From assembly GCF_002706795.1 (NCBI RefSeq), contig NZ_CP017705.1, positions 2,492,501 to 2,556,500 of the forward strand: a DNA stretch of 64,000 nucleotides, read 5' to 3'. Numbering within the stretch: position 1 is the first letter of the stretch; every line of letters begins with the position of its first letter. Below are positions 3,747 through 49,521 of the stretch, one piece after another. Source of the stretch: Brevibacillus laterosporus DSM 25 (GTDB lineage Bacteria; Bacillota; Bacilli; Brevibacillales; Brevibacillaceae). Below the pieces are notes generated by a model. That model saw only the letters and a list, made by a program, of their open reading frames with translations. It did no database searches and was not told where the DNA came from. The translations under genes and the position numbers were made by a program.

Positions 3747-4140
3747 ACATATAACGAGGTTCAGAATTATTTACATCTTTGTGGGAGAAATTGAAGTCGA
3801 TAGATTTTTTGAGCTGTACAAAATAGTGGGGCTTTTTGAATTCCGCTAGGTACAGCAAACAACACAGATCAACCAATTTTTAGCCGAGAAGAACAAAAAA
3901 GGTAGTTACAAAGCAGGATTCACCACCCATACGTGGAAAATTCCTTTTTCTAGGATGTAAACTACTATGGGTGGAACATGTTCGTAAGATATGCAACCAA
4001 ACAAGTAAAATAAAAAATATGGGCGTTCCCACTTTGGTGAACTGCCGATCGGGTAAGGGTAGCTAGTGGATAGGAGCAGCAGAACTTATAAAGGAAATCT
4101 AAGTAATGCCAAGTTTTCATTGCTGAGCCACCAAGCAAAA
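3747..4140. other. Intergenic region without a supported gene
   Basis: About 390 nt with frequent stops in all frames. The only clear structure is a 9-bp inverted repeat (CCACCCATA 3923-3931 and TATGGGTGG 3966-3974). It may be decayed accessory DNA between the collagen-like gene and the tRNA remnant. Confidence 0.5.
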
Positions 4141-8323: not shown

Positions 8324-9428
8324 ATGTCCATGCAGTTTCAGACCAGGTTTTGCGATATCTTTGGAGTTGAAAATCCAATTATACTTGCAGCAATGGCTGG
8401 CAATATAAACTCAGCTTCACTTGTGGCAGCAGTATCAGAGGCAGGAGGCTTAGACAACCATTGCTGGAGCATATGTTACACCTCAAGCTCTACGGGAGAG
8501 AATTCGTGAAGTGAGGGCTCTAACCAATCGCCCTTTTGCTGTGAACCTACTCTTATTTGAACAACCAGAACAGCAGGAAGTAACACCTGCTTTTAGGCAG
8601 TGGCTTAATCAACAAAGGGAACGATTCAATCTTCCACCATGGACAGGTGACTGGCCAACCCTTCAAGACGAGATTACCGATTGTTTTACGGTCATTTTAG
8701 AAGAGAAGCCTGCTGTATTCAGTTGTGCGATGGGATTGCCAGGTAAATATGGAGAAAGTGCAAAGGCAGCAGGAATGAAGGTTGTAGGTATGGCGACCAC
8801 ACAGGCAGAGGCTGAGCAATTAGTAAGTCAGCACGTCGACGCGATCGTGGCACAAGGTGGTGAAGCTGGTGGCCATCGGAGTACTTTTAATGCAGGGGAA
8901 GATGGACCTGGAGAATGTATAGGTACGTTACCCTTAGTGGCTCAGCTTTCTTCAGCTATTCGTGAGGTGCCTATCATTGCAGCGGGTGGGATTATGAATG
9001 GTCAAAGCTTAGTAGCGGCCTTAGCGCTTGGTGCCGAAGCTGTGCAATTGGGTACTCGGTTTTTGGGATGTTCAGAAAGTACGGCCAACAAGGCTTATAA
9101 GGAACGATTGTTTCATGCAAAAGAGACAGATACAGCTGTTACAAGAGCTTTCTCGGGCAGACCAGCGCGTGGAGTTGTGAATCAATTTATGAAAGAGTTT
9201 GCTAAAAGTCAAGTAGGATCGTTGGTATACCCCATTCAGAATGAGTTAACCAAGGAGATCCGCCAAGCAGCCGGAAAGGCCTTAGATGCTGACTATCTAT
9301 CGTTATGGGCTGGTCAAGGGGTAGGTATGCTCCAAAAGGAAGAGACAGCAGCAGATATCATGCATGCTTTATTGGAAGAGGCACAGCAAAGCTTTAGCAG
9401 ATTACAAAACTGGATGCATGTAAAATAA
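8324..9428 (+). pseudogene. Nitronate monooxygenase, split by a +1 frameshift
   Basis: FMN-dependent nitronate monooxygenase (2-nitropropane dioxygenase family), which oxidises toxic alkyl nitronates. The first frame (8324-8509) gives NPIILAAMAGNINSASLVA and AVSEAGGL, then turns to nonsense. The other frame resumes with TIAGAYVTPQALRERIREVR and runs to 9428. It keeps the FMN and catalytic regions (VAQGGEAGGHRS, AAGGIMNG, ALGAEAVQLGTRF). The break is at about 8451-8457, where TTAGACAACC is one base longer than needed for L-G-T. All else looks intact, so this is either a recent pseudogene or a sequencing error. AGGAGG precedes the ATG at 8324. citR follows 19 nt downstream. Confidence 0.85.
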
Positions 9429-42028: not shown

Positions 42029-42883
42029 ATGAAAAAGGTTTTTTCTACACTAGCGATTGGGGTATTAGCTTTAAGTTTGGCGGCGTGCGGTGCTGGTAAT
42101 AAAACGGATACTAACACAGCTACACCACAAGAAGGACAACCAGTAACCCTAAAGGTGGGAGCAACGGCTGTTCCTCATGCGGAGATTTTAAATGAAGTGG
42201 TTAAACCGATGCTACAGAAGGAAAACATTAATCTTGATGTTGTGCTATTCCAAGATTTTGTAATGCCAAATACACAACTTGCTGAGAAGGAATTAGATGC
42301 TAACTATTTCCAGCATATTCCTTGGTTAGAGAAAACAAATAAAGAAAAGGGTCTAGACCTTACGTATGTAGCGGGTATCCACATTGAGCCAATGGGAATT
42401 TACTCTAATAAATCAAAAGCATATAAAGATGTAGCAGCTCTTCCACAGGGCGCAGTAGTAGCGATTACGAATGCCTCTGCTGAACAAGGCCGTATTCTTG
42501 GCATTCTCGAAAAAGCGGGTCTGTTGAAATTAAAGGACGGCGTTGATACGAATGGAACAGTAGCTGATATCGTTGAGAAGAAAATAGAATTAAAAGAGTT
42601 AGAACCAGCCATGTTGCCACGTTCTATTGACGATCCAGGTATTGATGCAGCTGTGATTAACTCTAACTTTGCGATGGAAGCTGGACTAAAACCAACAGAG
42701 AACTCTATTTATATTGAAGAGGGTAAAGATAATCCAAATGTAAATGTGTTGGCAACTCGTCAAGATAACAAAGATAGTGAAGTAATTAAGAAGCTTGCTA
42801 AAGCGATGACCTCCCCTGAAGTGAAAGACTTCATTGATAAGAAGTATAATGGGGCAGTAGTATTTGTCGGGCAGCTTAAATAA
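42029..42883 (+). CDS. metQ: Methionine-binding lipoprotein (NlpA family)
   Basis: 284 aa. Lipobox SLAACGAG, then the NlpA binding fold: LKVGATAVPHAEIL, FQDFVMPNTQLAEKELDANYF, ITNASAEQGRIL and DPGIDAAVINSNFAMEAGL. GGGGGG precedes the ATG. Completes metNIQ. Two terminators follow. Confidence 0.94.
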   Translation: MKKVFSTLAIGVLALSLAACGAGNKTDTNTATPQEGQPVTLKVGATAVPHAEILNEVVKPMLQKENINLDVVLFQDFVMPNTQLAEKELDANYFQHIPWLEKTNKEKGLDLTYVAGIHIEPMGIYSNKSKAYKDVAALPQGAVVAITNASAEQGRILGILEKAGLLKLKDGVDTNGTVADIVEKKIELKELEPAMLPRSIDDPGIDAAVINSNFAMEAGLKPTENSIYIEEGKDNPNVNVLATRQDNKDSEVIKKLAKAMTSPEVKDFIDKKYNGAVVFVGQLK

Positions 42884-42891
42884 TAATGTCG

Positions 42892-42926
42892 AAAAAACTG
42901 TCGGATAAAACCGGTAGTTTTTTAGC
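42892..42926 (+). terminator. Rho-independent terminator of metNIQ
   Basis: Stem AAAAAACTGTCGG/CCGGTAGTTTTTT with a 6-nt loop. Confidence 0.82.
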
Positions 42927-42946
42927 TGAAAAGAGATACAAAATAT

Positions 42947-42989
42947 AAAAAAGATGACCTTGTGAATAATCCTGGGTCATCTTTTTTTG
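42947..42989. terminator. Bidirectional terminator between metQ and the M50 protease gene
   Basis: Stem AAAAAAGATGACC/GGTCATCTTTTTT, with T runs on both strands, between convergent genes. Confidence 0.82.
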
Positions 42990-43023
42990 CTTGAATTTTC
43001 CAGCCTACTTATATTTACAAGGT

Positions 43024-44247
43024 TCACGATACTTGGCGGGTTACGTTACGGGTCATTTTTCTTTGGCGATTCCATGACCACAGTACAATACCAAATGGAA
43101 GCAATGTTAATAGAAGTAAGAGAATGCCATCAACGAATTGCCAAGAGAGAATGGGATATTGCAAGAAATCAGTCGTAATTCGACGAATAATCTCGATTGA
43201 TTGAAGCAAGAAGAAATTGAAGAAGAAATAGAGTGCGAAACAAAAGCCTAACAAAAAGAAGATGGAGTACCAGCGGATCACTTGTTTTTCTCGCATATCT
43301 ACCGTGTCCCATAGCTCTTGATCAGCAGGAGTCCACTTGCGGTAAAATTTACGTAAGAACAACTGGGTATTATCAAATAAATTATTACAGCCAAAAAAGG
43401 TAGTGAATACATAATAAATATCCGTTCGCATAAAGAACATAAATTGAAAGCCCAGAGCCATTAAGAAATTCAAGTTCATTAATTTGATAAAGGAGAGCAT
43501 AAAATCAGATAGCATGATGGTTCCTACATCATTAGCATACAAGAGCCAGACACCAATACTAAAAAAGAGCGCATCTCCAGACATGCCAGCGAGGTAGGCT
43601 GTATAACGCTTATGTGGTTCAACTAGAACGATGTCTGACATGTTTGTCTCTGCCACAGGAAAGAATAAGCGATGGCTAAAACCAATCCGACTACCTACCC
43701 CTAGAGAACGCACAGCCGTTAAGTGAGCTGTCTCGTGTATAAACAAAAAAAGATAGTTAACAACAACTGCTAACAAAAGAGAAGCGGTCAAAGACGGCGA
43801 GCTAAAAATATCGGTGAAGACAGGAAAATATTCATGCTGAAAAAAGAGAAGAGTAACAGCAGATAAAAAGCAGGCAATAGAGATAGAGAATGTCAATTTG
43901 TTAAAAAGTACTTTTCCAACCCGTTCGGATATCCATGGAAAATGATCGATGCGTATCTCTTTTTCATTAACTACTGTTCCATCTACTGTATATACAAATT
44001 GATATTCGTTTATCAGATCAAGTGCAAAATCATGAACATCGACAGGTTCACCAAAGCGTCTTTCCATTTCTTCAGCTACTTGGGTAATGGTTTGTCCCTG
44101 ATCTAACATCTCAATAATTTCAACAGCAAAGGTAGGTAGCATGATATATTCACTTTTATCGGGTCTGCCAATTATGGTTTCTTCTTCATTTACTTGGCGT
44201 TTTTGTAGGGGATGCATACGCAACATGCTACTATTAGTTAGTTCCAT
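43024..44247 (-). CDS. M50/site-2-type membrane metalloprotease with PqqD/RRE-like N-terminus
   Basis: 407 aa. Residues 8-95 look like a small winged-helix PqqD/RRE-type domain (MLPTFAVEIIEMLDQGQTIT, then an acidic EEMERRFGEPVDVHDF stretch), the kind that binds leader peptides. About eight membrane helices follow. HETAH at 171-175 in helix 2 gives two zinc His ligands and the catalytic Glu. MRTDIYYV (Asp276) fits the third ligand seen as R-x-D-G-Y-Y in YydH-like peptidases. Peptide maturation or export is the likeliest job (inference). GGAGG lies 9 nt before the ATG. It follows the ThiF-like gene by 15 nt. Confidence 0.78.
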   Translation of the reverse strand: MELTNSSMLRMHPLQKRQVNEEETIIGRPDKSEYIMLPTFAVEIIEMLDQGQTITQVAEEMERRFGEPVDVHDFALDLINEYQFVYTVDGTVVNEKEIRIDHFPWISERVGKVLFNKLTFSISIACFLSAVTLLFFQHEYFPVFTDIFSSPSLTASLLLAVVVNYLFLFIHETAHLTAVRSLGVGSRIGFSHRLFFPVAETNMSDIVLVEPHKRYTAYLAGMSGDALFFSIGVWLLYANDVGTIMLSDFMLSFIKLMNLNFLMALGFQFMFFMRTDIYYVFTTFFGCNNLFDNTQLFLRKFYRKWTPADQELWDTVDMREKQVIRWYSIFFLLGFCFALYFFFNFFLLQSIEIIRRITTDFLQYPILSWQFVDGILLLLLTLLPFGIVLWSWNRQRKMTRNVTRQVS

Positions 44248-44262
44248 TGGTTAATTCCTCCG

Positions 44263-45423
44263 TTAGCTAAGCACTTCTTCGACTGGTTGCTCCAACGAGA
44301 AGATAGAAAGTGTTCGATTTCCTTCGCCGCAGGTCGGGCAATCTAATTCTTTTCGTTCTATTTCTGAAAGAATTTTGGTTTCATACGTTAAGAAATTGAT
44401 CGACACAAATTTACCTTGCGATTGAACTTGACTTGTGCCTGTAAGAATTTTGCATGCTTCAGAAGCGATAATCCCTGTAATAATGGCTAAATTTGGAGCG
44501 ATAGTGGCTGTAGGAAGATGGTATCCTGAATCAACCAAATACTTGACCTCTTCTTCGTAATGATCTGGATTTTGATCATAGTGATGCAGATGGAAGCAAT
44601 CCAAGCAAGGAGTTTTTCCAGGGTGAATATGATAAAAAGTTCCTTCTGTTAAATTGACTCCTCCTGCAATATAGGGGATTCCTAATTCAACACATGCTGT
44701 ATTTACCCATCTTTGAATAAAGAAAAAGGGCGTATCAGCAGCTAAAATAACAAGATCACTACCTGCTATAAGTTCTTTGACATCAGTAGCAGAGGAGATT
44801 TTTTTCATAATGGTTTCTACCGACATGCTTGAATTGCGTTTTGTAACGAATTCTTCGGCTACTTCGATTTTTAATCGACCAATATCATCCTCTTTAAAAA
44901 GTAATTGGCGATTTAAATTACTAAGCTCCACACGGTCGAAGTCGGCAATACGGACATTTGTAATGCCTAGACCAGCAAAGTTAGACAGGAGAGTAGAGCC
45001 AAAGGCACCTGATCCAAGAATCGTTACTCTCTTTTGCAATAAAACCTCCTGAATCTTACTAGGAGGATTGTCTATATCTGAATAGATCGAAAAGAAACGA
45101 ATATTTGCTCGGTATCGATCCTTTTGAGCTGTTGATAGAGTAGTTGTTTCTTCCCATGTCTTATCTTCAAGATATCCCAGAGAGTTAAGAGCAGTAATTG
45201 CCTCGGTTAGTTCCTCAAATGTGACTTCGGGGTGTTTGCTGACAAGCTCCTGGTGTATTTCCTTAGTAGTGCGTGTTCCATCAAGTAACGGAATTAATGT
45301 TTTGATGGACCCAGTTTCATCGGGAATATGATTGAGAAAGCCAGATACTTGTCCAAATTGGAGAGTGTCGGATCCAATTTTAATAATAGGATGAATTTCT
45401 TTTAAGATAGGTTTTTGTTCCAT
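44263..45423 (-). CDS. E1/ThiF-like adenylating enzyme with PqqD/RRE-like N-terminus
   Basis: 386 aa. Residues 1-88 form a wHTH-like region (LIPLLDGTRTTKEIHQEL, LNSLGYLED) as in TOMM cyclodehydratase and MccB-type proteins. The E1 Rossmann domain has GSGAFG at 137-142 and SNLNRQ at 168-173 (ATP-binding Arg), with Asp in LAADTPFF. Two zinc CxxC pairs are at 273/276 (TPCLDC) and 362/365 (DCPTC). Such enzymes adenylate a peptide C-terminus or help cyclise Cys/Ser residues. No YcaO, dehydrogenase, radical-SAM or sulfur-carrier gene is adjacent. ATG 45423 is used since AAAAGGAG lies 9 nt upstream. Confidence 0.85.
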   Translation of the reverse strand: MEQKPILKEIHPIIKIGSDTLQFGQVSGFLNHIPDETGSIKTLIPLLDGTRTTKEIHQELVSKHPEVTFEELTEAITALNSLGYLEDKTWEETTTLSTAQKDRYRANIRFFSIYSDIDNPPSKIQEVLLQKRVTILGSGAFGSTLLSNFAGLGITNVRIADFDRVELSNLNRQLLFKEDDIGRLKIEVAEEFVTKRNSSMSVETIMKKISSATDVKELIAGSDLVILAADTPFFFIQRWVNTACVELGIPYIAGGVNLTEGTFYHIHPGKTPCLDCFHLHHYDQNPDHYEEEVKYLVDSGYHLPTATIAPNLAIITGIIASEACKILTGTSQVQSQGKFVSINFLTYETKILSEIERKELDCPTCGEGNRTLSIFSLEQPVEEVLS

Positions 45424-45438
45424 ACAATCCATCTCCTT

Positions 45439-45501
45439 TTAGGTATAGAAACAAGGATAGGGGTAGCTTAGGCAACTATCCATAACACATCTGGTAAGCA
45501 C
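45439..45501 (-). CDS. Possible 14-20 aa peptide upstream of the ThiF-like gene
   Basis: From ATG 45483 the frame encodes MDSCLSYPYPCFYT (14 aa); from GTG 45501 it has 20 residues and three Cys. Its stop codon overlaps the ribosome site of the ThiF-like gene. MccA, the substrate of the MccB adenylating enzyme, is only 7 residues, so a tiny substrate is conceivable. No ribosome binding site of its own is visible, which argues against it. Confidence 0.15.
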   Translation of the reverse strand: MLTRCVMDSCLSYPYPCFYT

Positions 45502-45522
45502 GAGCAGGTGATAAAAAAGTAA

Positions 45523-45595
45523 TTGTCAGAATTATCTAACGAAAATTGTATCCTTTTATCATGCTTATTTCAATATAAATTTACAATTTTCAGTA
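45523..45595 (+). repeat. Intergenic element A (duplicated at 45852)
   Basis: Contains TGTCAGAATTATCTAAC, then GAAAATTGTA (45541-45550) and its perfect inverted match TACAATTTTC (45582-45591). A second copy of the same pattern lies at 45852-45917. It is about 100 bp upstream of the ThiF-like gene. The GAAAATT/AATTTTC halves resemble CodY half-sites. Confidence 0.6.
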
Positions 45596-45652
45596 ATCAG
45601 TCCAAAACTGTATAAATAACGCTTCTTTCCATATAGTGAAGTAGAGAAGAAG

Positions 45653-45754
45653 ATGCATGTAACCCCATGTTTGGACGAGAAAATAAACAAAATGAACCGT
45701 TATTCCAATTGTTCATTTATGTTTCGTGTTGGTAGAAAGACAGTCAGTGGATGA
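45653..45754 (+). CDS. Possible small ORF, 33 aa
   Basis: ATG 45653 behind a weak AGAAGAAG encodes 33 residues beginning MHVTPCLDEK, with two Cys and a basic tail. It is on the strand opposite to the ThiF-like gene, between the two duplicated elements. No family recognised; low coding confidence. Confidence 0.2.
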   Translation: MHVTPCLDEKINKMNRYSNCSFMFRVGRKTVSG

Positions 45755-45851
45755 AAGGTGTTCAAAAAGGTACTTTTTTAGCTAAAAGGGAAGGATAAAA
45801 CTAGAAGTAGAGCCTAATCTTTTGGTTACCTAAATGGAATTCATTTTACAA

Positions 45852-45917
45852 TTTGACAGAGTTATCTAATTGAAAATCTACCTTTTATTTAGTAAATTAG
45901 AACTACAATTTTCCATG
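45852..45917 (+). repeat. Intergenic element B (copy of 45523)
   Basis: Contains TGACAGAGTTATCTAATTG, GAAAATCTACCTTTTAT and ACAATTTTC in the same order and orientation as element A. It lies about 160-230 bp upstream of the first oligopeptide-binding gene. Confidence 0.6.
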
Positions 45918-46080
45918 AAATTCATCTTTAGTTCTATATTACCAAAAATACACTTTATTTTTATTTATTTATCTTGATAATTAATAAAAAATAATTAAAT
46001 GTAAAAGAAAATTATATTATATTATTCTGATAAAGAGTATAGTAAAGCATATGAGAAAGAAAAAAGGGGGACACAAAAAG
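45918..46080. promoter_or_regulatory. Very AT-rich leader of the first oligopeptide-binding gene
   Basis: Runs of A and T with several TATAAT-like words (for example TATATTATAT near 46013). No single promoter can be fixed by eye. Confidence 0.35.
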
Positions 46081-47718
46081 ATGAAAAAGAATATTTTTGT
46101 ACTAATGAGTTCCGTTTTAGTTTTAGGTGCAGCTTTAGCAGGTTGCGGAGGTAATACAAGTACATCAGCACCGACTCCTGCTGATGGATCAAAACAGGAA
46201 GCTTCAAAAGGTGAGAAGAAAGTATTACGATTGAACATGCACACTGAACCACCAACAGCTGACCCAGGTATTGCGGAGGATTCCACTTCTGGTGCAGTGG
46301 TACGCGCAATCTATGACGGCTTGACTCGTACCGATAGCGAGGGGAAACCTCAACCATCCGTAGCAGAAAAAATTGACGTTTCACCTGATGGAAAGAAATA
46401 TACATTCCATTTGAGAGATGCTAAATGGAGTAATGGCGAGCCTCTAACAGCGCATGATTTTGAATTCGCTTGGAAGCGTGCATTAGATCCAGCGACAGCG
46501 TCTAACTATTCTTACCAGCTGTATTACATTAAAGGTGGAGAAGCATTTAACACTGGAAAAGGTAAGAAAGAGGATGTAGGTGTTAAAGCGACTGACGATA
46601 AGACCCTGGAAGTAGAATTGGCAAACCCAACACCATTCTTCCTGGAGCTTACTAGCTTCTATACGTATTATCCTGTAAATAAGAAGCTGGTTGAATCCAA
46701 CAAGGATTGGGCAAAAGAAGCTAAGACTATCGTTGGTAATGGACCATTTAAAATGACTAACTGGGAACATAAGAGCAAAATGACTCTTGAGAAAAATGAA
46801 CACTACTGGGATGCCGATGTAGTGAAAATCGACAAGCTAGAATTCTCTATGGTAGAGGATGAAAATACAGAGCTTTCCATGTATGATAACGGTGAATTGG
46901 ATTGGGCAGGTGCCCCTCTAAGCAATATTCCGTTGGACTCTATCCCTGCCCTGCAACAAAATAATTCGTTGATTACAAAACCAAAAGCATCCATTTATTG
47001 GTATAAAATGAATACAGAGAAGGCACCATTCAATAACGCCAAAATTCGTAAAGCATTCGCCTATGCTGTAAATCGTGATGCGATCGTTAAGAACGTAACA
47101 CAATCAGGACAAATTCCGGCAATGGGTATGCTACCACCTACTATGGCATTTAAAAAAGAGGGCTACTTTAAAGACAATAATGTTGAAGAAGCTCAAAAAT
47201 TATTAGCAGAAGGTATGAAAGAAATGGGTTTGGATAAACTTCCTCCAATTACTATTTCGATCAACACTTCTGAAAACCATAAAAAAATTGCCGAAGCAGT
47301 TCAAGACCAATGGAAAAAAGGTCTGAATGTTGATGTGAGGATAGAGAATTCCGAGTGGAAAGTATACTTGGATAAACTTCACCAAGGTAACTACCAAATT
47401 GGACGTATGGGCTGGAACGCTGACTTTAACGATCCAATTAACTATATTGAGTTGTTCCGTGATAAAAAGGGTGGAAACAACGATACCAACTGGGAAAATG
47501 CTGAATACAAAAAACTTGTGAACGAATCTCAAAAAGAGCTAGACAAAACGAAGCGTGATGCGTTACTACAAAAAGCAGAAGAAATCTTTATGGACGAACT
47601 GCCAGTTATCCCAGTTTACTTCTACACCGATTCTTGGGTGCAAAATCCTAAGCTGAAGGGTGTAAGCTTTGATGCTAGGGGTAACATTGACTGGAAATGG
47701 GCAGATTTAGAACAATAA
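46081..47718 (+). CDS. oppA: Oligopeptide ABC transporter substrate-binding lipoprotein (OppA family), copy 1
   Basis: 545 aa. Lipobox ALAGCGGN, then SBP_bac_5 fold: LRLNMHTEPPTADPG, TFHLRDAKWSNGEPLTAHDF, NGPFKMTNWEHK, NNAKIRKAFAYAVNRDAI and MGWNADFNDPINYI. The FAWKRALDP and YDGLTR blocks are typical of OppA/DppE. ATG 46081 follows GGGGGA; an in-frame start at 46051 lacks a site. No permease or ATPase genes are adjacent. It is followed by a terminator and a paralogue. Confidence 0.92.
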   Translation: MKKNIFVLMSSVLVLGAALAGCGGNTSTSAPTPADGSKQEASKGEKKVLRLNMHTEPPTADPGIAEDSTSGAVVRAIYDGLTRTDSEGKPQPSVAEKIDVSPDGKKYTFHLRDAKWSNGEPLTAHDFEFAWKRALDPATASNYSYQLYYIKGGEAFNTGKGKKEDVGVKATDDKTLEVELANPTPFFLELTSFYTYYPVNKKLVESNKDWAKEAKTIVGNGPFKMTNWEHKSKMTLEKNEHYWDADVVKIDKLEFSMVEDENTELSMYDNGELDWAGAPLSNIPLDSIPALQQNNSLITKPKASIYWYKMNTEKAPFNNAKIRKAFAYAVNRDAIVKNVTQSGQIPAMGMLPPTMAFKKEGYFKDNNVEEAQKLLAEGMKEMGLDKLPPITISINTSENHKKIAEAVQDQWKKGLNVDVRIENSEWKVYLDKLHQGNYQIGRMGWNADFNDPINYIELFRDKKGGNNDTNWENAEYKKLVNESQKELDKTKRDALLQKAEEIFMDELPVIPVYFYTDSWVQNPKLKGVSFDARGNIDWKWADLEQ

Positions 47719-47741
47719 GGTTGATAGAAAACAGATAGATA

Positions 47742-47778
47742 AAAAGAGGGGCAAATGATGCTCCTCTTTATTTTTTTG
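47742..47778 (+). terminator. Rho-independent terminator of oppA copy 1
   Basis: Stem AAAGAGGGGC/GCTCCTCTTT with a 7-nt loop and T7. Confidence 0.8.
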
Positions 47779-47901
47779 AACATATAAATGTAAATTTTGT
47801 AACATAAATTAAAATTAATTTTTGTTATAAAAGTGTTTGTTCTCGAAAAAAACAAGGTATATTTACTTCTATATATCTTTTTTTAGGGGGGCATAATACA
47901 C

Positions 47902-49521
47902 ATGAATAAAAGCATTTTTACAGCTGTAAGCTCCATATTAGTTCTTAGTACAGCATTAGCTGGCTGTGGTGGCGGTACAGCCTCTGAGAATAAAACGGGA
48001 GCGGCTAGTGGTACTACTCATGAACAAGTTCTACGTGTGAATCTACATTCAGAACCACCTACTGCGGACCCTGGTCTTGCAGATGACAATGCTTCTTCTG
48101 CCATTTTGAGAGCTACTTTTGATGGTTTGATGCGCTCAGATAAGGACGGCAAAGTAACAAATTCTGTAGCGAAAGATTATAAAGTTTCTGAAGATGGCAA
48201 AACTTATACATTTACTTTACGTGATTCACTATGGGCAAACGGTGAAAAATTAACAGCAAAAGATTTTGAATATGCTTGGAAACGAGTACTTAATCCGAAA
48301 ACAGCGGCTTCTTATGCTTATCAATTGTATTATTTGAAAAATGCAGAAGCTTATAACAAAGGTCAAGCAAAGGCTGAGGACGTCGGTGTAAAAGCACTTG
48401 ATGAGCACACGCTCGAAGTAACCCTGAACAATCCAACCCCGTTCTTCTTGGAGCTAACAGCATTCTATACGCTTTATCCTGTAAATGAAAAAGTTGTGGC
48501 ATCTAGCGATAAGTGGGCAGGGGAAGCAAGCACGCATATTGGGAACGGACCATTTAAAATGGAATCCTGGAAGCACAAAAACGAAATTGTTCTTGTGAAA
48601 AACGATAATTATTGGGATAAAGATAATGTGAAATTAGAAAAAATCATCTACCAAATGATTGATGATGAAAATACAGAGTTATCCATGTTTGAAAATGGAG
48701 ATCTCGATTGGGCAGGTCAGCCTAATGGTATGCTACCAATTGATGCAATTGCTCCTAACATGGCATCTGGCAAGGCGCACGTTCAGCCTAAGGCAGGTAT
48801 CTATTGGTACAAATTTAATACGGAAAAGGCACCGTTTAATAATGCTAAAATCCGTAAAGCCTTTGCATACGCAATTGATCGCAAAACAATCACAGATAAC
48901 ATTACACAATCTGGCCAAACCCCTGCTACTAATCTGCTGCCACCAACTATGGCTTTAGCAAAAGAAGGATTCTTTAAAGATGGTGATGTGGATACGGCGA
49001 AAAAGCTTCTTGCTGAAGGTATGAAGGAAGAAGGCTTAACGAAGCTTCCACCAATTGAAATCTCCTTTAACACAGCAGAAAAACATAAGAAGATTGCAGA
49101 AGCGATTCAAGATCAATGGAAAAAGGCTTTTGATATTGACGTGAAGCTTACTAACAAAGAATGGAAAGTATTTATTGATGACCTGCACAGAGGTAACTAC
49201 CAAGTAGGTCGCAATGGTTGGAATGCCGACTACAATGATCCAATTAGCTTCTTGCAGATTTATAAAGATAAAACAGGTGGTAACAACGACACCAAGTGGG
49301 AAAATCCAAAATACAAAGAATTGCTAAATAAAGCTGATGCTGAAACAAACCCAGAGGTACGTAAAGGGTATTTGGCAGATGCAGAGAAAATTATAATTGA
49401 TGAAATGCCGATTATTCCGATCTACTTTGACTCTAACGTTTGGTTACAAAATGACAACCTTAAAGGCGTTGTTGTAGATGCCATGGGTAATGTAGATTAC
49501 AAGTGGACTTCTTTTGAATAA
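47902..49521 (+). CDS. oppA: Oligopeptide ABC transporter substrate-binding lipoprotein (OppA family), copy 2
   Basis: 539 aa, lipobox ALAGCGGG. It aligns along its whole length with copy 1: LRVNLHSEPPTADPG, TFTLRDSLWANGEKLTAKDF, GNGPFKMESWKHK, FNNAKIRKAFAYAIDRKTI and NGWNADYNDPISF. Binding-pocket surroundings differ, suggesting different peptide preference after tandem duplication. GGGGGG precedes the ATG. It has its own terminator and probably its own promoter in the AT-rich 120-nt leader. Confidence 0.92.
   Translation: MNKSIFTAVSSILVLSTALAGCGGGTASENKTGAASGTTHEQVLRVNLHSEPPTADPGLADDNASSAILRATFDGLMRSDKDGKVTNSVAKDYKVSEDGKTYTFTLRDSLWANGEKLTAKDFEYAWKRVLNPKTAASYAYQLYYLKNAEAYNKGQAKAEDVGVKALDEHTLEVTLNNPTPFFLELTAFYTLYPVNEKVVASSDKWAGEASTHIGNGPFKMESWKHKNEIVLVKNDNYWDKDNVKLEKIIYQMIDDENTELSMFENGDLDWAGQPNGMLPIDAIAPNMASGKAHVQPKAGIYWYKFNTEKAPFNNAKIRKAFAYAIDRKTITDNITQSGQTPATNLLPPTMALAKEGFFKDGDVDTAKKLLAEGMKEEGLTKLPPIEISFNTAEKHKKIAEAIQDQWKKAFDIDVKLTNKEWKVFIDDLHRGNYQVGRNGWNADYNDPISFLQIYKDKTGGNNDTKWENPKYKELLNKADAETNPEVRKGYLADAEKIIIDEMPIIPIYFDSNVWLQNDNLKGVVVDAMGNVDYKWTSFE

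Follow-up and report, generated by a model that had tools for sequence, protein, structure and literature searches.

A Paired ThiF-like Enzyme and RRE-Fused M50-Type Protease in Brevibacillus laterosporus Probably Mature Peptides of About 20 Residues Encoded Elsewhere in the Genome

A stretch of 64,000 nucleotides from the genome of Brevibacillus laterosporus DSM 25 (contig NZ_CP017705.1, positions 2,492,501 to 2,556,500; hereafter the window) carries two adjacent genes for an E1/ThiF-like adenylyltransferase and an M50-type membrane metalloprotease. Both proteins begin with a domain that resembles the recognition element (RRE) of ribosomally synthesized and post-translationally modified peptide (RiPP) pathways. 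The question raised by this locus is which peptides the two enzymes act on and what they make of them. A sequence-only reading of the DNA had proposed a minimal pathway for peptide modification and processing, and this proposal is now supported by the RREs, the pairing of the two genes, and the precursors described below. The pair probably matures peptides of about 20 residues that are encoded elsewhere in the same genome.

Both genes lie on the minus strand. The E1 (386 aa) is encoded at 44263..45423; an alternative start is found at 45432, and inspection of the open reading frame (ORF) gave the better Shine-Dalgarno sequence for 45423. The downstream protease gene (407 aa, 43024..44247) follows after 15 nt (44248-44262). 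This spacing was confirmed from the ORFs, together with the GSGAFG, SNLNRQ, and two CxxC motifs of the ThiF-like enzyme and the HETAH motif of the metalloprotease, as first read from the sequence.

The N-terminal domains were examined by a check that had been set beforehand. In the protease, residues 1-93 (43969..44247, minus strand) form the predicted RRE. Residues 1-104 taken alone scored 24.8 bits against PqqD (PF05402; cutoff 23.4), and the score inside the full-length protein was 21.5, which is below the cutoff. PqqD was matched at E ≤ 1 by 20 of the 33 aligned protease N-termini. The AlphaFold2 model of this region consists of strands followed by three helices, with a predicted local distance difference test score (pLDDT) of 92.5, and the 12 best matches of the model in a Foldseek search of the PDB were all RiPP proteins. 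The top match was the lasso peptide RRE TbiB1 bound to its leader (probability 1.00, E = 0.016). In the E1, the RRE-like domain spans residues 2-90 (45154..45420, minus strand), which as a profile matched the N-terminus of PaaA from the pantocin A pathway (5ff5) at 2.5e-9. The two RRE profiles also align with one another (hhalign probability 82%, E = 1e-5). The PqqD score, the model, Foldseek, the PaaA profile, and hhalign thus agree on RRE-like N-termini for both proteins, as the sequence-only reading had suggested.

The E1 matches ThiF (PF00899) at E = 1.4e-53, and its closest solved structures over both domains are PaaA (5ff5, 1.7e-47) and then MccB. The nucleotide-binding glycine motif GSGAFG (residues 137-143; 44995..45015, minus strand) has G137, G139, G142, and S143 invariant in the E1 alignment (A2), in which the E1 proteins of loci L058 and L059 are without residues 140-141. 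The SNLNRQ motif (residues 168-173; 44905..44922, minus strand) includes R172, and R172, K185, and D230 are invariant in the 17 aligned E1 sequences. Their spacing (13/45) is the same as that of R167, K180, and D225 in EnfB (PMC12250964). The two CxxC pairs, located from the sequence and the E1 alignment, are CLDC (residues 273-276; 44596..44607) and CPTC (residues 362-365; 44329..44340), both on the minus strand. Among the matches listed for the genome of the window (3 of 4), one E1 match covers the RRE.

The protease is a polytopic protein with an HExxH motif and a distal Asp, as in M50/S2P proteases. In its HETAH motif (residues 171-175; 43723..43737, minus strand), H171, E172, and H175 are invariant across 38 aligned proteases, as are T275, D276, and Y278. 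D276, located in the invariant T-D-x-Y (43420..43422, minus strand), is a candidate for the third zinc ligand. The protease itself gave a poor match to the Pfam M50 family (E = 1.8); Peptidase_M50 was matched at E ≤ 1 by 30 of the 38 aligned relatives, the best at 4.2e-6. The M50 assignment is based on the Pfam matches of the relatives and on the invariant residues rather than on a structure match. One RRE-M50 was counted in the genome of the window.

A second check set beforehand asked whether the two genes occur together in relatives. The M50 gene was found in 16 of 39 genomes of the family, and an E1 orthologue is adjacent in all 16; the pairing is therefore not due to chance. The M50 of a sister genome (G004) is 92% identical to that of the window. 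A decayed copy of the pair is seen at L069 (genome G011), where the E1 has an in-frame TAG, the M50 is in two pieces, and a micro-ORF (MKIKAKKVESVRTTVFTSNV) is still open.

The precursors were found in related Brevibacillus loci, where ORFs of 18-23 codons, each led by a Shine-Dalgarno sequence, lie upstream of the E1 gene and encode the leader MKIQAKKVE-x-V-x-x-T followed by a short variable tail. One of these, MKIQAKKVESVRTTAVAA, is present as a single identical copy in 10 genomes (genus g7, the named ones being Brevibacillus), about 150 nt upstream of the E1 gene. Across 11 aligned genomes (these 10 and B. daliensis), the ORF of this type is 97% conserved, against 88-90% in its flanks, and its variable columns number 3, 1, and 9 at the three codon positions. 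In B. dissolubilis, nine ORFs of 21-23 codons, all preceded by a Shine-Dalgarno sequence, occur together with two E1 genes and one M50 gene. They encode the leader MK(I/L)QAKKV(E/D)xxRTT, and AAAGGTSV, VAAPGATV, ANATTSV, and ATPPSLY are among their tails. B. daliensis has three loci, one of which consists of an E1 gene and two precursors without an M50 gene within 18 kb. The Thr directly ahead of the tail is kept in many peptides, including those at loci without an E1, so we would assign this residue to recognition by the protease or the RRE rather than to the reaction of the E1.

Further micro-ORFs were observed at other loci. At L149 (6130-6399), three identical 21-residue ORFs (MKKIKVKVLPKVGLPANRANT) adjoin an RRE-M50, a DUF2785 protein, and a divergent ThiF protein. 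At L139 of Tumebacillus lacus (3875-3937), MKIQARKVEQVKTTAICVDC and MKIQAKRVEQVRTTAECVAC, both ending in Cys, lie between a gene that resembles ftsZ by eye and the E1 gene. The actinomycete E1+M50 loci L180, L183, L185, L189, L193, and L195 encode a peptide of 35-36 residues ending in KRLEKVETT(G/A)LREGG; the presumed substrate of the E1 is here very small and ends in Gly-Gly, as ubiquitin does.

In the genome of the window, four precursors were found, at sites 178 kb and 1.26 Mb from the pair. MKIQAKKVEQVSPTLMTSV, at 178 kb, was found by a pattern search, and an array at 1.26 Mb, consisting of MKIQAKKMEKVAPTLVGSSV and two copies of MKIQAKKMEKVAPTLANTCV, was found by a DNA search. Both sister species carry the LANTCV peptide at the corresponding place, with two copies in G003 and three in G004. 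All four precursors from the genome of the window end in Val, and none has a Glu after the leader. The leader pattern had been written from the relatives, but the remote precursors in the genome of the window and the two sister genomes were a blind prediction. The precursor predicted from the sequence has been found in this way, adjoining the E1 in relatives and at distant sites in the genome of the window.

Across the 398 genomes searched in the class, the leader DNA pattern occurred at 28 sites, which lie in 16 genomes, and the reversed pattern gave no match. The M50 profile at 1e-12 matched 35 of the 398, with 16 of these in the family of the window. The genomes with the leader pattern are the same 16 family genomes, and neither the pattern nor the protease occurs in the remaining 20 that the sample contains from this family. 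Outside the family, the 19 M50 matches have other leaders, or none was found. Since the genomes are related, no p-value is given for this co-occurrence. No precursor was found upstream of the E1 gene on its strand in B. laterosporus or the two sister genomes, either within 900 nt with a Shine-Dalgarno requirement or in three frames of 620 nt. A 20-nt match (95%) to a precursor start at 42981-43000 of the window, just downstream of the M50 gene, has no start codon and an E-value of 0.043; it may be a remnant but was treated as chance. Allowing 4 mismatches, the two precursor regions have 2 AT-rich 20-mers in common, where none of 15 shuffles gave more than 1, a result that we do not trust.

Taken together, these results make it likely, in our judgment, that the two enzymes form the part of a minimal ThiF-like (TLAT) RiPP pathway that modifies and processes the peptide, in which E1 adenylation and link formation are combined with leader removal by the M50. 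The substrates would be the precursors of about 20 residues, in which 4-9 tail residues follow the leader MKIQAKK(V/M)E-x-V-x-x-T; in the genome of the window they are supplied in trans. Both enzymes would recruit the leader through their own RRE. The E1 would adenylate the C-terminal carboxylate of the precursor using ATP/Mg, and a nucleophile within the peptide would capture the activated carboxylate to give a dehydrative link, leaving the core as a ring or with its C-terminus blocked in some other way. At the membrane, the M50 would bind this leader as well, cut near the conserved Thr, and free a short modified peptide. The gene pair, the predicted RRE folds, the conserved adenylation and zinc residues, the precursors, and their co-occurrence with the pair are directly supported. 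The features by which TLAT systems are recognized were also found: a ThiF domain fused to an RRE, the conserved Arg, Lys, and Asp, and a short precursor with a conserved leader, which co-occurs with the pair though unlinked to it in the genome of the window. Such enzymes form several types of bonds, and the exact bond can therefore not be read from the sequence.

The protease was also followed beyond the family. Loci were gathered by the protease alone, and each protease gene that matched the profile at E ≤ 1e-15 was classified according to which partner lies no more than 1.8 kb away. Among 75 protease genes, 49 are beside an E1, 18 beside a tetratricopeptide repeat (TPR) protein, and 8 beside a MASE12 protein, with none lacking a partner; a weak match (G213) was left out of this count, and L069 with its split M50 was counted as E1-paired. 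An earlier count on 69 genes, which took in 28 of the 42 loci gathered in one of the searches, had given 49, 13, and 7, respectively; two of the other 14 loci and some further matches proved not to repeat counted loci, and six were added (L051-L053, L133, L190, and L194). The M50 gene at L133 contains an internal TGA. RRE-M50 systems were seen in Bacilli, in Actinomycetota, and on one Myxococcota and two Pseudomonadota metagenome contigs.

The TPR-paired loci include L051-L053, L060-L062, L136-L138, L140, L142, L165, L166, L173, L178, L190, and L194, and the TPR protein has about 640-750 residues where it is whole. Those that were read encode between one and four peptides that follow the pattern MKKxxIKKTExVKLT(T/S) or MKKxxVRxVETLKTT. 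MKKMSIKKTEAVKLTTAASLYGEPCWVIA is an example of a peptide at a TPR-paired locus. Such loci also occur on Corallococcus and Lysobacterales contigs. In the three MASE12 proteins scanned, the fusion partner is HD_5 in two cases and a histidine kinase in the third. Seven of the eight MASE12 loci were examined for peptides, and all seven carry one (e.g., MKIRKLKKVKVTCWWCFMFPKG). These peptides, of 19-23 residues with a CWWC motif, are found at L135 (4093-4164), L144 (4969-5037), L145 (4976-5044), L151 (5149-5208), L152 (5861-5929), L153 (6053-6118), and L154 (6318-6383), all in Bacilli. The combination of RRE-M50, MASE12 protein, and CWWC peptide looks like a peptide-sensor unit.

A motif micro-ORF led by a Shine-Dalgarno sequence was found on the same strand within 4.5 kb of 50 of the 69 proteases, against none in 285,862 bases farther off. 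The motif, the 4.5 kb distance, and the Shine-Dalgarno requirement were set after many micro-ORFs had been seen and after a first count, in which 39 of 63 proteases had such an ORF no more than 2.5 kb away and 11 ORFs were scored as background (L164, a repeat of L058, was included). All 11 of these belong to the system: the B. dissolubilis array accounts for 8, L059 has 2 next to its lone E1, and 1 is an extra copy at L137. Among the 19 proteases without a motif micro-ORF are those of the window and of both sister genomes. In a tree built from 68 of these 69 proteases (L069 was left out), MASE12 pairing forms one clade next to the E1-paired proteases, and TPR pairing requires one or two changes; long branches leave parts of this tree unsure.

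Several points weigh against the TLAT pathway as drawn above. The Foldseek matches of the RRE fold include none with E < 0.001, and for the membrane domain there is no S2P structure among the matches listed (50 of 87). The precursors lie at a great distance from the pair in the strain of the window and in both of its sister species. The E1 promoter region has 0 words in common with any precursor region, which is no more than the shuffles gave. The conserved Thr is missing in the E1-type precursors of L141, L143, L147, L148, and L171, and the precursor cores have no conserved nucleophile and no conserved C-terminal residue. No transporter was seen adjoining the pair. The leader motif behind the count of 50 in 69 was written from these same loci. 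We infer the product, the binding of the leader, the adenylation, the cyclization, the cleavage site, the release, and any signal role.

The absence of a conserved internal nucleophile in the cores speaks for an alternative that we nevertheless consider unlikely, in which C-terminal activation by the E1 allows attack by an external nucleophile (amine, thiol, or sulfide) to give an amidated, conjugated, or thiocarboxylated peptide. The peptide tails from several Actinomycetes end in Gly-Gly, as in ubiquitin-like proteins, EnfB is able to amidate its peptide with amines (PMC12250964), and a C-terminal thioesterification by MccB has been published (PMC13255007). However, no sulfurtransferase or E2-like protein is found among the six neighbors scanned, and four of the five ThiF-like RiPP enzymes considered here catalyze cyclizations (PMC12250964, PMC12150305).

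Less probable still is a route like that to microcin C, in which the E1 would link a nucleotide to the peptide C-terminus as in a peptidyl-AMP analogue, and the product would be a Trojan-horse antibiotic. MccB modifies a C-terminal Asn specifically (PMC12250964), and the Val C-termini in the genome of the window speak against the Asn-dependent route as described; membership in the microcin C group was rejected for this reason. An MccC-type exporter is likewise absent among the six neighbors. What the two systems share is an adenylating E1 homologue and a tiny precursor; MccB is the second-best PDB family for the E1, and the precursors of some relatives do end in Asn (MKIKVKKIEQICTTMVTRN, MKKIKVKPVPSVKTTGLAFN, and MKINVKKVEVLVPLINHHN). 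That the E1 is a housekeeping ThiF or MoeB for thiamine or molybdopterin, as the resemblance of its catalytic domain to ThiF/MoeB would suggest, and the M50 an unrelated envelope protease is very improbable, given that the E1 falls far below the model cutoffs (ThiF 122.7 vs 275), that another ThiF/MoeB-like gene is present in the genome (G000:C1:1289154), and that the RRE, the co-occurring precursors, and the invariable pairing weigh against it.

The TLAT reading places the system within a known kind of RiPP pathway. The products of the known enzymes are a phosphoramidate (MccB), a bicycle (PaaA), a thiolactone (GrcB), an imide (EnfB), and an indolylamide (IndF), and EnfB, GrcB, and IndF are ThiF-like enzymes with RREs that use ATP to activate a carboxylate and cyclize the peptide (PMC12250964, PMC12150305). 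EnfA, with 21 residues, is about as short as the precursors described here. The Enf, Ind, and Grc systems differ, however, in having transporters, an M16 peptidase (Ind), or radical SAM enzymes (Grc), and they use Trp or Cys (PMC12250964, PMC12150305). Pantocin A biosynthesis has an E1 of equal domain order, the best solved-structure match (PaaA), and a short precursor. However, PaaA acts on two Glu residues of the 30-residue PaaP, and the pathway includes a 2-oxoglutarate-Fe(II) oxygenase (PaaB) and an EamA exporter (PaaC) (PMC12250964). Membership in this group was rejected because the cores in the genome of the window are without the two Glu. Neither PaaB nor PaaC is among the six neighbors scanned.

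M50 proteases are known to process the precursors of epipeptides and pearlins (PMC10885120). EpeP and TglG/TmoG are, like the protease of the window, membrane M50 enzymes acting on a small modified peptide, but no RRE fusion or E1 partner is mentioned for them in the accessible part of that article. The S2P-clan protease TmcP of the TMcin pathway is an intramembrane zinc protease that removes a RiPP leader; it differs in belonging to the DUF3267 family and in acting on a transmembrane precursor with a 45-residue leader, and no E1 is mentioned in the accessible text (PMC13252029). The term M50 does not occur in the review of ThiF-like RiPPs, MccA/MccB included (PMC12250964). Three differences set the system apart from known TLAT systems: an RRE on the M50, very small precursors that are partly supplied in trans, and protease relatives paired with TPR proteins or sensors.

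With regard to the proposed lack of the usual partner enzymes, YcaO gave 0 matches in the entire genome, with a control search positive in 5 of 14 genomes, and a YcaO azole partnership, as in thiazole/oxazole-modified microcins (TOMM) or linear azol(in)e-containing peptides (LAP), was rejected. The absence of radical SAM and exporter genes among the neighboring ORFs was judged by eye only. The lack is less odd than it first seemed, since the known ThiF-like RiPP clusters include some that have no YcaO (PMC12250964, PMC12150305). On the opposite strand, two SBP_bac_5 genes diverge from the E1 gene, and a convergent metNIQ-type importer faces the M50 gene; a LytR protein was also among the six neighbors scanned. 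The two SBP_bac_5 (OppA-like) genes occupy 46081-49521 of the window, and the position of such peptide uptake genes next to a presumed peptide maker may be chance. A suspected repeat upstream of oppA was not found on search. Promoter-like sites in 42880-46090 numbered 6, below the 10.6 expected, and no weight is given to them. Elsewhere in the window, the end of a 23S rRNA gene is followed by 11 tRNA genes (1-2222), and a nitronate monooxygenase is present as two adjacent ORFs that each match that family (8324-9428).

No paper on the RRE-M50/ThiF pair or on these peptides was found by title or abstract among those listed in the open-access literature, which leaves most subscription journals outside. 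The network of 27,400 RRE-ThiF proteins in the IndF paper may contain this family unlabeled. The precursors have about 20 codons, which is below the usual limits of gene calling, and a widespread pathway can therefore stay unseen beside annotated ThiF and M50 genes.

The pattern of three partners among the RRE-M50 relatives points to a maturation hub that all three would share and that may serve peptide signals. A broader proposal, which we put forward tentatively and with some doubt, is that the RRE-fused M50 is the maturation and release hub of an unrecognized class of micro-peptide communication. One leader type (M-K-x-I-x-K-x-E-x-x-x-T) would feed three modules, namely a capping or cyclizing E1, a TPR protein, or a MASE12 histidine kinase/HD sensor that reads the peptide, and in the species of the window the peptide genes would be scattered, with one pair serving several of them. 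The precursors now in hand make the enzymology directly testable in vitro. If the proposal holds for the sensor-linked relatives, it would add a new path by which a tiny ribosomal peptide becomes a signal at the cell surface or in the cytoplasm.

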